NCBI GenBank assembly: GCA_946617675.1 | Contig: CAMOKH010000097.1 | Span: 23,611 to 87,610 of the forward strand | Origin: an uncultured Prevotellaceae bacterium | GTDB taxonomy: Bacteria; Bacteroidota; Bacteroidia; Bacteroidales; Bacteroidaceae | Direction: 5' to 3' | DNA: 64,000 bases | Part shown: piece by piece, positions 54,364 through 58,613 of the stretch | How positions within the stretch are numbered: the stretch's first letter is position 1 | Layout of the letters: every line of letters starts with the position of its first letter | Position numbers and translations under genes: made by a program | The notes under the pieces: generated by a model | Told to the model about the DNA's origin: nothing | The model's database searches: none | Seen by the model: the letters and a program-made list of their open reading frames with translations, nothing else

Positions 54364-56166
54364 ATGAAGCATCAGTTACGCAGTGCCGTGTGCACAGAAG
54401 GCCGCCGCATGGCGGGAGCCCGCGCCCTTTGGGTGGCTACGGGCATGAAGCAGGAACAGTTTGGCAAGCCCATCATTGCCATCGTCAATTCGTTTACACA
54501 GTTCGTACCAGGACATACTCATCTGCACGAGATTGGTCAAATCGTACGCGAGGAAATCGAGCGCATGGGCTGCTATGCCGCTGAGTTCAACACCATAGCC
54601 ATCGACGACGGCATCGCCATGGGCCACGACGGCATGCTCTACTCGCTGCCCTCACGCGACATCATTGCCGACTCGGTGGAATACATGGTCAACGCCCACA
54701 AGGCCGACGCCATGATCTGCATCTCGAACTGCGACAAGGTGACGCCAGGCATGCTCATGGCCTCGATGCGTCTGAACATTCCTACCGTCTTCTGCAGCGG
54801 AGGCCCAATGGAGGCCGGACGCTGGCGCGGCGAGAATGCCGACCTGATAACGGCTATGGTGAAGGGTGCCGACCCCACCGTCAGCGACGAGGAACTCAAC
54901 CAGATTGAGCAGTGCGCCTGTCCCGGCTGCGGCTCCTGCTCGGGCATGTTTACGGCCAACTCAATGAACTCGCTGACCGAGGCCATCGGACTGTCGCTGC
55001 CCGGCAACGGCACCATTCTGGCCACCCATACCAACCGTGTAGAACTGTTCCGCCAGGCCGCTCGCCAGGTGGTGAAGAATGCGCTGGCCTACTACGAGCA
55101 GGGCGACGAGAGCGTGCTGCCCCGCTCGATAGCCACCCGCCAGGCTTTCCTCAACGCCATGACGCTCGACATCGCCATGGGCGGATCTACCAACACCGTG
55201 CTCCACCTGCTGGCCGTGGCACAGGAGGCAGGTGTCGACTTCACCATGAGCGACATCGACCGCCTCAGCCGTCAGACGCCCTGCCTCTGCAAGCTGGCTC
55301 CCAACACCCAGAAGTACTCGGTTCAGGAGTGTGGCCGCGCCGGCGGCATACTCGGTATCCTGAACGAGCTGAGCAAAGGCGGCCTGATCGACGGTTCGGC
55401 CCGCCGCGTTGACGGGCTGACGCTGGGCGAGGCCATGCGTAAGTATAGCATCGTCGACGGCGACATCGATGCTGAGGCCAACCGCATCTACCAGAGTGCC
55501 CCCGCCGGACGATTCTCGACGAAGATGGGCTCGCAGTCGGCAGAGTGGGGGACACTCGACACCGACCGCGCCAACGGCTGCATACGCGACATCGCTCACG
55601 CCTACACCAAGGACGGCGGACTGGCCGTGCTCTTCGGCAATATCGCCCAGGACGGCTGCGTCGTCAAGACGGCCGGCGTCGACGAGTCGCTGTGGCACTT
55701 CGAGGGCCCCGCCGTGGTGTTCGATTCTCAGGAGGACGCCTGCGAGGGCATTCTCGGCGGCCGCGTGAAGAGCGGCGACTGCGTGGTCATCACCCACGAA
55801 GGCCCGAAGGGTGGCCCCGGCATGCAGGAGATGCTCTATCCCACCTCGTATATCAAGTCGATGCACTTAGGCAAGGAGTGCGCCCTGATTACCGACGGCC
55901 GCTTCTCGGGCGGCACGAGCGGCCTCTCCATCGGCCACATCTCGCCCGAGGCTGCCAACGGCGGCAACATCGGTAAGGTGAAGGACGGCGACATCATCGT
56001 CATCGACATCCCCTCGCGCACAATCAGCGTGAAGCTCAGCGACGAGGAACTGGCCGTCCGTCCCCAGCAGCCGTTGAAGCGCAACCGCCAGGTGTCGAAG
56101 GCCCTGCGTGCCTACGCCCAAAGCGTCAGCTCGGCCGACAAGGGCGGCGTCCGCGTGATAGAGTAA
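54364..56166 (+). CDS. ilvD: Dihydroxy-acid dehydratase
   Basis: [73 protein letters not shown]. Confidence 0.97.
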
Positions 56167-56172
56167 GACCAG

Positions 56173-56260
56173 CCGGGTAACGCGTCTCAACCCACCGGGT
56201 AACGCACCTCAACCCGGCGGGTAACGCCGCTCTACCCGCCGGGTAACGCCGCTCGACCCG
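56173..56260. repeat. 22-bp tandem repeat x4 (CCGGGTAACGCnnCTCnACCCG)
   Basis: Units at 56173, 56195, 56217, 56239; each unit has short internal CGGGT/ACCCG complementarity. Confidence 0.85.
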
Positions 56261-56324
56261 CCGCCTCCGTATCATGAGCAGCCGCCTTAGCTTACTGAAC
56301 CGCCGCCGTCAGAAACAGAGCCAC

Positions 56325-56540
56325 TAACCTCCCGTCAGCCCTATAAATCGTTGATATGCAGACGGTTTGTGAATCATCGTCCTCCCGCCAGACCTCCCGT
56401 CAATCTCCCGTCAACCTCCCGCTTGCCTATAAGTGAGGTCCGACGGGACCTCAACGGGAGGTCTCGCCGCCCAACCTCCCGTCGCGTAACCCCTCTGTAC
56501 ATCGGCGTTTCAAGCGAATGCGGGAGGTCAGGAGGTTAAA
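56325..56540. repeat. Non-coding ACCTCCCGTCA direct/inverted repeat cluster
   Basis: Repeated cctcccgtca / cctcccgcca / ctcccgtcaa and inverted gacgggacctcaacgggaggt, gcgggaggtcaggaggt. Confidence 0.7.
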
Positions 56541-56569
56541 ATCAATTGTCTTACACTGAGAAAACTTTT

Positions 56570-56594
56570 CTCCGAATCGCTTGGCGCTTCGGAG
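56570..56594. terminator. Hairpin CTCCGAAtcgcttggcgcTTCGGAG followed by T-tract; overlaps promoter region
   Basis: ctccgaa/ttcggag arms then tttttttt; near-duplicate at 57064-57088. Confidence 0.7.
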
Positions 56595-56603
56595 TTTTTT
56601 TTG

Positions 56604-56611
56604 TATCTTTG
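56604..56611 (+). promoter_or_regulatory. Bacteroidetes -7 box TATCTTTG
   Basis: ttttgTATCTTTGcaccg upstream of 56665 ORF. Confidence 0.65.
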
Positions 56612-56664: not shown

Positions 56665-56907
56665 ATGAATGAAAGAATAACAGAAGGACAAGCTTCAGTT
56701 CTCAACCCTGTACAACTGCATCTATTGAGAATGTTTTCGTACATGAAAAGTGAGGCTCAGTTGAAAGAACTTAAAAAAGTGCTCGCCGAATACTATTTCA
56801 ACGAGGTGGAAAAAGGTATGGCCAACCTTGAAGACCAAGGACTTTGGGGGCGCGAGCAGAGCGATGCGGTAATGAACGAACATTTGCGCACACCATACGA
56901 ATCCTGA
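56665..56907 (+). CDS. Small hypothetical protein (possible antitoxin)
   Basis: 80-aa helical ORF MNERITEGQASVLNPVQLHLLRMFSYMKSEAQLKELKKVLAEYYFNEVEKG with own promoter. Confidence 0.6.
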   Translation: MNERITEGQASVLNPVQLHLLRMFSYMKSEAQLKELKKVLAEYYFNEVEKGMANLEDQGLWGREQSDAVMNEHLRTPYES

Positions 56908-57019: not shown

Positions 57020-57097
57020 GAAAAGAAAAGAAAAGACTGATTAACAACAGTTCAAAAATTTTTCTCCGAATCGTTTGGCGGTTCGGGGATATTTTTG

Positions 57098-57105
57098 TAT
57101 CTTTG
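57098..57105 (+). promoter_or_regulatory. Bacteroidetes -7 box TATCTTTG with upstream TTTGG
   Basis: tcgTTTGGcgg (57074) and ttttgTATCTTTGtcg. Confidence 0.7.
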
Positions 57106-57375
57106 TCGCCGACTCAGGTAGCCCGTAAGGGTGAGCGGGTCGAAACTTAGTGGTAAAAGGACGTTTACGAACGTTATCTTCAGCATCTGAATCTCGCAAA
57201 TTCAAGCACTTGAAGATACGCAACCGAAGCGTCCACTTTGGGTGTATTGTACCCTGTTCATCTTTGAACAGCTTCAATATATCTCGGCGTGGGCTATCGA
57301 GTTGCTTATCCTAGTGCGAGGCAATGCGAGAGCCCAGATGCGGGATAGGCGAAGTAGAGCACCCACGTCTTTACG
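57106..57375 (+). ncRNA. Candidate structured non-coding RNA or long structured leader of the downstream operon
   Basis: Nested stems GGACG(57159)/CGTCC(57230), TATCTTCA(57175)/TGAAGATA(57211), GAAT/ATTC; hairpins GGGT/ACCC and CTGTTCA-TCTT-TGAACAG (57254-57271); CGTGGG/CCCACG closing pair. Confidence 0.55.
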
Positions 57376-57423
57376 TTTAACACATTCAATCGCTGAATCG
57401 GGGTGGCTATAGGCAGACGGTTT

Positions 57424-57621
57424 ATGGCGTATGGCAAACATAATGAAACGACAGAGCATTCTAATCCTACTTCCCATGCCTTAAAAAGCTGTGATAATGA
57501 CAGAAAGGCTTTTGAAGCGCAGCAAGTACAACTTAACAATACGATGAATGCTGTTGAAAACTATATCAAACAACTTGAAATACTAAATACAAACCCTTTT
57601 CAAAATAACAAAGTATTATGA
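57424..57621 (+). CDS. Small helical protein, first ORF of ubiquitin-like cassette
   Basis: 65-aa ORF MAYGKHNETTEH...; its TGA overlaps the ATG of the next sORF (57618). Confidence 0.5.
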   Translation: MAYGKHNETTEHSNPTSHALKSCDNDRKAFEAQQVQLNNTMNAVENYIKQLEILNTNPFQNNKVL

Positions 57622-57758
57622 ACAAAATAGAGAAGACTTTAGAAGAAAGACGTGCGGAACTCAAGCGTAAATTACCTGAAGGTGGTAACATTTCTCTTAT
57701 AAAGGACAAAGAAAAAGATGGGGATTGTATTCAACTCCCCACTACCATTTATTGTTAA
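57618..57758 (+). CDS. 46-aa ORF related to the 48-aa repeat unit of the E2-like protein
   Basis: MNKIEKTLEERRAELKRKLPEGGNISLIKDKEKDGDCIQLPTTIYC; compare AALAAKRAELKRKLLEGGKITLKKDGNATG downstream. Confidence 0.55.
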   Translation: MNKIEKTLEERRAELKRKLPEGGNISLIKDKEKDGDCIQLPTTIYC

Positions 57759-57797: not shown

Positions 57798-58613
57798 ATG
57801 AATACTATTATCATTCCTCAAGGTCGTTTAGCAGACGATGCTGCCCTTGCAGCAAAACGTGCAGAACTGAAGCGTAAGTTACTCGAAGGTGGTAAAATCA
57901 CTCTTAAAAAAGATGGTAATGCCACAGGTGCTGCTGGTGAAGCATCTACTATCAGCATTCCTCAAGGAAAGCTGGCAGATGACGCAGCTTTGGCAGCAAA
58001 ACGTGCAGAACTGAAGCGCAAGTTGCTTGAAGGAGGTAAAATCACTCTTAAAAAGGATGGAAATGCTACAGGTGCTGCTGGTGAGGCATCTACAATTAGC
58101 ATCCCACAAGGAAAATTGGCAATGCCTCAATGGTACGAACGTGATCCAGAACTACTTGAAGCAGAGAAGATAGCTATGGGGCGTGCATTCAGCAATTTTG
58201 AACTCGGAATACTGGACGATGGCCGCTTGTATTGGCAAGGAACCGTTTCGCCGGGTATATATGAATCCAAATTCGGCGAAAAACGTATCTACCATTTGAT
58301 GGCTGTTTACCAACAGAACCATCCTGAACAGAGAATGGGATCAACAGTATTTGTTTATCCCTTGTTACCTGATGCTGAAGAACTCATGGAAGAATTGCAT
58401 CGAAAGACAGGTCAATACCCTTCTCATATATTAAGAGACTCAAACAATCAGCGATACCTGTGTACTGCGGAATCTTCTGATATAAAAGTTGGCAATACAG
58501 TTACTACTGCTGCATCTGTAATTGGCTGGGCTGTGAAATGGCTTATGGCTTTTGAACTTGTGTTAACAGGAGACCTTCCCGTAGAGAAATTCAATCAACA
58601 TCACGGTATATAG
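57798..58613 (+). CDS. E2/UBC-like (prokaryotic ubiquitin-conjugating enzyme-like) protein with tandem N-terminal 48-aa repeats
   Basis: LLEAEKIAMGRAFSNFELGILDDGRLYWQGTV...YHLMAVYQQNHPEQRMGSTVFVYPLLP...PSHILRDSNNQRYLC(222)TAE...TVTTAASVIGWAVKWLMAFELVLTGDLP fits the bacterial E2 pattern with catalytic Cys. Confidence 0.72.
   Translation: MNTIIIPQGRLADDAALAAKRAELKRKLLEGGKITLKKDGNATGAAGEASTISIPQGKLADDAALAAKRAELKRKLLEGGKITLKKDGNATGAAGEASTISIPQGKLAMPQWYERDPELLEAEKIAMGRAFSNFELGILDDGRLYWQGTVSPGIYESKFGEKRIYHLMAVYQQNHPEQRMGSTVFVYPLLPDAEELMEELHRKTGQYPSHILRDSNNQRYLCTAESSDIKVGNTVTTAASVIGWAVKWLMAFELVLTGDLPVEKFNQHHGI
57813..58100. repeat. 144-bp tandem coding repeat x2 (plus partial third) in the E2-like gene
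   Basis: IPQG[R/K]LADDAALAAKRAELKRKLLEGGKITLKKDGNATGAAGEASTIS at 57813-57956 and 57957-58100; third unit starts IPQGKLA. Confidence 0.97.

Follow-up and report, generated by a model that had tools for sequence, protein, structure and literature searches.

A predicted bistable 5′ leader RNA ahead of a ubiquitin-like operon belongs to a multicopy family found mainly in Bacteroidales

The window considered here (the whole stretch of DNA that was analysed, 64,000 nt) comes from an uncultured Prevotellaceae bacterium (assembly GCA_946617675.1, contig CAMOKH010000097.1, positions 23,611-87,610 of the forward strand). It carries an island of ubiquitin-like (Ubl-like), JAB and ThiF genes whose operon begins, on the + strand, with an ORF of 65 aa (57424-57621), and ahead of this ORF lies a long, structured RNA. 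In Bacteroides, the promoter consensus is TTTG / TANNTTTG. As a preliminary description of the locus had noted, a promoter directly precedes the RNA, and its sequence comprises TTTG at 57074-57077, a spacer of 20 nt and the -7 element TATCTTTG at 57098-57105 (+ strand, 57074-57105 overall). The RNA had been placed at 57106-57375; its conserved sequence is wider, running from about 57109 to 57414, and its 3′ border lies ten nt before the ATG at 57424. Part of this promoter region has a counterpart nearby, as two 51-bp blocks (56561-56611 and 57055-57105) are 88% identical, both consisting of an inverted repeat with a T-run and, immediately after it, the TATCTTTG promoter. The former block precedes a small ORF at 56665 and the latter precedes the leader RNA.

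The segment 57106-57375 folds at -106 kcal/mol, compared with -77.2 ± 4.8 kcal/mol for dinucleotide shuffles (z = -6.03), and none of 200 shuffles was equally stable, in support of the structured RNA that had been proposed. All the stems named in the preliminary description are present in the sequence: GGACG/CGTCC (57159-57163/57230-57234) encloses TATCTTCA/TGAAGATA, with GAAT/ATTC at 57189-57203, GGGT/ACCC and CTGTTCA/TGAACAG lie at about 57240-57272, and CGTGGG/CCCACG is found at 57288-57293/57362-57367. Although these stems are real, they belong to only one of two folds, and the second fold and the 3′ tail had been missed.

From 5′ to 3′, and always on the + strand, the leader opens just past the inferred start site with a hairpin, GACTC..GGGTC (57109-57142), which was defined by folding this segment in 62 homologues (mean z of -2.8, with 92% of them below -1). 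It is followed by domain 1 (57155-57236), delimited by covariation in sets of 92 and 262 sequences, where GGACGTTT (57159-57166) pairs with AAGCGTCC (57227-57234) and TATCTT (57175-57180) with AAGATA (57213-57218), and whose interior holds the segments x (57183-57189), core (TCTCGCA, 57192-57198) and N (57206-57210). A central hairpin of variable length (57240-57284), supported by folding and some covarying pairs, separates it from the terminator-like domain 2 (57286-57372). In the latter, GGCGTGGG (57286-57293) pairs with CCCACGTC (57362-57369) and TTGCTTATCCT (57302-57312) with GGGATAGGCGA (57342-57352), enclosing N′ (AGTGC, 57313-57317), core′ (TGCGAGA, 57325-57331) and x′ (CAGATGC, 57335-57341), and a short T-run stands 3′ of the domain. 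Finally, the alignment defines a conserved 3′ tail, GCTGAATCGGGGTGGCTATAGGC (57392-57414), shortly upstream of the start codon.

Within the taxonomic family of the window's organism, a DNA search matched 122 of 400 genomes and 18 of 30 genera. For the whole order, a covariance model built on the second domain (R1) matched 69 of 394 Bacteroidales genomes, and a pattern search retrieved at least 119 stretches, almost all of which carry a Bacteroidales label (Prevotella, Bacteroides, Paraprevotella, Muribaculaceae, Parabacteroides and Xylanibacter). The carriers include the cultured species Bacteroides bouchesdurhonensis, Paraprevotella clara and Xylanibacter rarus. In a phylum-wide sample of 348 genomes, the window's own genome was the sole match apart from a weak one of 34 bits; the family is mainly one of Bacteroidales and is scarcely encountered in the rest of the phylum. 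When 17 carrier genomes were searched more thoroughly, each gave 1 to 13 model matches, so that a genome may hold up to about a dozen copies (among the 13 matches in genome G186, L251 falls within a long ORF and appears spurious). Median identity between copies is 51% both within and between genomes, the exceptions being a pair of similar copies in G219 and, in G186, a group of closely similar ones that stand before BspA-like genes. The phage and plasmid collections that were searched held no match to the leader, and in viral contigs L193 is a genuine copy and L194 a chance match. The former lies in the first ~400 bases of IMGVR_UViG_3300021318_000005, near the edge of this viral contig, with an uncharacterised ORF behind it.

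The position of these copies with respect to promoters and genes is strikingly regular. The Bacteroidota promoter motif TANNTTTG (TAnnTTTG) precedes domain 1 by no more than 110 nt in 79 of 90 homologues, compared with 4.6% of random windows from the same loci, and its position peaks 50-60 nt upstream of the domain. On the other side, an ORF on the same strand (at least 45 codons, with its ATG within 230 nt) follows in 132 of 144 copies, and its start is found at a median of 70 nt past CCCACGTCT, the 3′ edge of the RNA (interquartile range 59-79); about half of the 12 copies that lack such an ORF end near a contig or locus end. Since a promoter lies upstream and an ORF at a short, regular distance downstream, the RNA has the arrangement of a cis-acting 5′ leader of the gene behind it. 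This supports one of the two alternatives raised in the preliminary description, and the other, a stand-alone or 6S-like RNA, is at odds with a multicopy family that stands directly ahead of ORFs and whose tail, before the start codon, pairs back.

The first genes behind the leader are highly diverse, with 83 Pfam families among 130 proteins. The commonest are Cys-rich radical SAM target peptides (TIGR04117, 12 cases) and proteins with BspA-type leucine-rich repeats (10 cases), and a crude test detects a hydrophobic N-terminal segment or a twin-arginine-like start in about two thirds of the first proteins. A function or pathway shared by the downstream genes was sought among the 130 proteins and none was found. 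A special link with the Ubl-like island is not supported, as the genes preceded by relatives of the leader are unrelated and this island is just one of many passengers. The TIGR04117 peptides behind L055, L063, L066, L067, L098, L106, L134, L136, L139, L170 and L190 begin with a twin-arginine-like RREFFKKAAKG, and radical SAM genes come next in several of these loci. In G186, five related leaders (L252-L256, most pairs being more than 80% identical) each stand before a different BspA-like leucine-rich repeat protein, which suggests that leader and gene were duplicated together.

The strongest covariation in an alignment of 262 homologues (effective number 140 at 90% identity) links domain 1 with domain 2. 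The TATCTT and AAGATA strands of domain 1 enclose x, a hairpin (GAATCTCGCAAATTC) and N, and in domain 2 the strands GTTGCTTATCC and GGGATAAGC enclose N′, a hairpin (GGCAATGCGAGAGCC) and x′. Nearly any sequence may occur in x:x′ and N:N′, yet these segments are complementary within each copy, the own partner being better than a swapped one in 98.7% (x:x′) and 98.0% (N:N′) of comparisons. The cores change in concert and without exception, from TCTCGCA:TGCGAGA (63 of 92 rows) to CTTCGCA:TGCGAAG (29 of 92), and TCTGGAC:GTCCAGA, TCTTGCA:TGCAAGA and CTTCGAAC:GTTCGAAG were read by eye in more distant copies; since the second search relied on an exact pattern in domain 2, selection bias accounts in part for the lack of variation at some core positions.

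These pairings make up the alternative fold, a long rod (57155-57372) which is also the minimum-energy fold of the window copy and which is capped by the central hairpin. Its inner helices are x:x′ (57183-57189/57335-57341), core:core′ (57192-57198/57325-57331) and N:N′ (57206-57210/57313-57317); GATA:TATC and GCAAC:GTTGC (57215-57224/57301-57310) come next, and GTCCAC:GTGGGC (57231-57236/57289-57294) and AAAGGACGT:ACGTCTTT are the outer ones. The same strands take part in both folds, and two separate hairpins and a rod of ~220 nt are therefore mutually exclusive: in the homologues, the outer strands pair as GGACGTTT with AAACGTCC and GGCGTGGG with CCCACGTC in the former, and as AAAGGACGT with ACGTCTTTT and GTCCAC with GTGGGC in the latter, and the inner strands exchange likewise.

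Both folds are supported by compensatory change above shuffled controls. In 92 sequences, the two-hairpin fold has 95.1% of its cells paired and 137 cells with compensatory change (49 in shuffles and at most 53 in slid versions), and the rod has 91.6% paired and 449 such cells (142 in shuffles and at most 88 in slid versions), all these counts being inflated by relatedness and the shuffles leaving kinship in. Per-helix counts reveal double changes in both sets, and part of the covariation of one fold could derive from the other, as strands that share a partner look alike. On average, the energy of the rod is 14.7 kcal/mol lower than that of the separate domains, and nearly every copy has the rod as its more stable state. 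Domain 2 forms a terminator-like stem in 76 of 82 copies when folded alone, and the equilibrium probability of this stem is about 0 when domain 1 is present. With the rod more stable by about 15 kcal/mol, the two-hairpin state needs kinetics or a binder to be populated.

In 95 of 132 homologues (72%), a run of at least five T's comes after the stem of domain 2. The run of the window copy is short (TCTTT only), and a pattern scan called no terminator there, the loop limit of the scan being one that excludes such a stem. The leader combines, at the sequence level, a conserved terminator stem, a U-run (weak in the window copy) and an exclusive antiterminator, as an intrinsic attenuator would. Between the T-run and the ATG there is the conserved tail, whose TATAGGC lies at a median of 17 nt from the ORF start. 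The part of it that resembles GGGAGTCTAT pairs with a GTAGA.ACTCCC stretch ending in the CCC of the terminator, forming a third helix, Q. In the window copy, helix Q (57354-57410) joins GTAGAGCACCC (57354-57364) with GGGTGGCTAT (57401-57410), and its CCC is common to the terminator stem. The own pairing of Q exceeds the swapped one in 72% of comparisons (90 homologues), and divergent copies have fully changed versions of it (L264, read by eye). Helix Q is compatible with the rod and cannot coexist with the terminator stem. Two further ideas about the tail were discarded: pairing with the 5′ hairpin was the same as for swapped partners (0.50), and a stable local hairpin was not apparent (mean z of -0.14).

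The possibility of a new RNA class, also raised in the preliminary description, is in agreement with the covariance models of Rfam 15, which gave no match in the window at the gathering threshold, nothing believable in the leader stretch at a lax threshold and no match over the leader RNA of divergent homologues. The likeness to 6S RNA (including 6S-flavo of Bacteroidetes) lies in the long, rod-like RNA. However, 6S is a single trans RNA, while the leader is multicopy and has no match to any 6S covariance model, and membership was rejected on these grounds. The Bacteroides sRNA families in Rfam (e.g., BTnc060, RF04184) come from the same bacterial order, but the BTnc060 match is a separate stretch about 200 nt upstream of copy L264 and not the leader RNA. 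With riboswitches and intrinsic attenuators, the leader shares its place directly ahead of an ORF, its exclusive terminator and antiterminator pairings and its long conserved RNA. By contrast, it has no known aptamer, its downstream genes have no common pathway, and the exchange involves two whole hairpin domains that pair lengthwise plus a third exclusive helix, Q, near the start codon. By analogy, it may work like an attenuator or riboswitch, as a candidate member of these groups.

No account of the leader as a whole, of its pair of folds or of its occurrence in multiple copies was found in the papers searched, and HMP2_1881 is the only lead. This candidate of 108 bp is described as predominantly from Bacteroidetes, expressed in faecal RNA-seq and often near radical SAM domains (Fremin and Bhatt 2021, PMC8040213). 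Domain 2 is about 90 nt long and radical SAM target peptides are frequent downstream of the leader, so that HMP2_1881 may be domain 2, as judged from its description; if it is the same, it covers about a third of the leader. In its text, the paper assigns HMP2_1881 no function as a leader, no switch between two folds and no range of genes.

A bistable attenuator or riboswitch-like leader is the most likely reading of the predicted structures. We give a probability of roughly 0.6 to a cis-acting leader of a new family, mainly in Bacteroidales, that switches by termination, and from the two folds we infer the control that follows. Transcription would begin just past TATCTTTG, and domain 1 would be the first to fold, as a hairpin. 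As domain 2 emerges, it would zip onto domain 1 by strand exchange to give a single long rod in which the terminator strands are consumed, the polymerase would read through, and helix Q would form near the ribosome binding region. Since each new strand of domain 2 can meet domain 1 before its own partner exists, the rod and read-through would be the default. A putative signal (metabolite, protein or ion) would hold domain 1 in its own fold and let domain 2 fold alone; this lone hairpin and the U's after it would then stop transcription and leave an RNA of ~265 nt.

The closest rival is a switch that acts mainly on translation through Q, which suits the window copy with its weak T-run. More generally, the leader could act on translation or mRNA decay instead of termination, with the rod and helix Q hiding or exposing the region before the start codon, or with the long duplex being a site for an RNA-binding protein or RNase III. 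The end of Q near the start codon, the short T-run of some copies and the greater stability of the rod all agree with such a role, but by itself it leaves the covarying domain 2 stem and the T-run immediately after it unexplained, and we regard it as rather unlikely.

A discrete trans-acting small RNA, 6S-like or other, that stands before genes by chance would account for the own promoter, the terminator-like 3′ end and the 6S-like rod, and is nonetheless improbable when an ORF follows at a fixed short distance in so many copies, the conserved tail beyond the T-run pairs back, a genome holds many copies with different genes behind them and neither 6S nor any other Rfam family matches. Complementary ends, multiple copies and varied neighbours might likewise recall a mobile palindromic repeat (MITE or REP-like) inserted before genes, an origin that we find scarcely credible, as orientation and spacing to promoter and ORF are fixed, copies of one genome are no more alike than those of different genomes, internal pairs show compensatory change and phage and plasmid records are without a match. 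The near-identical copies without a fixed gene position that characterise MITE and REP elements were not what was found.

Going beyond the termination switch, a more tentative proposal, which we hold to be possible but doubtful, is that the family represents a novel kind of RNA sensor or riboswitch, built on interlocked strand exchange in a hitherto undescribed architecture. Through it, a single cellular signal (e.g., envelope stress or a nucleotide second messenger) would govern numerous surface proteins, modified peptides and accessory operons that are otherwise unrelated. The family is present in about a sixth of the sampled Bacteroidales genomes, often in several copies each, and the leader would offer a handle on the switching of accessory genes (BspA-like proteins, lipoproteins, radical SAM target peptides and, here, a ubiquitin-like operon) in dominant gut and rumen bacteria. 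The covariance model and the pairing map make the question of the switch directly testable.

Some minor observations concern the surroundings of the leader in the window. An antisense ORF of 78 aa (57041-57277), already suspected to be an artefact, proves to be one, as the matching frame is broken by stops and indels in the closest homologue (L007, 84% DNA identity); the RNA on the opposite strand accounts for the conservation of its DNA. Past a dihydroxy-acid dehydratase-like gene, 56165-56480 contains short tandem-like repeats, with ACCCGCCGGGTAACGCC units followed by several CCTCCCGTCA units. Within the operon, an ORF of 46 aa (57618-57758) resembles the repeat unit RAELKRKL.EGG, which is present twice in the Ubl-like protein of 271 aa (57798-58613), and looks like a truncated extra copy of this repeat.
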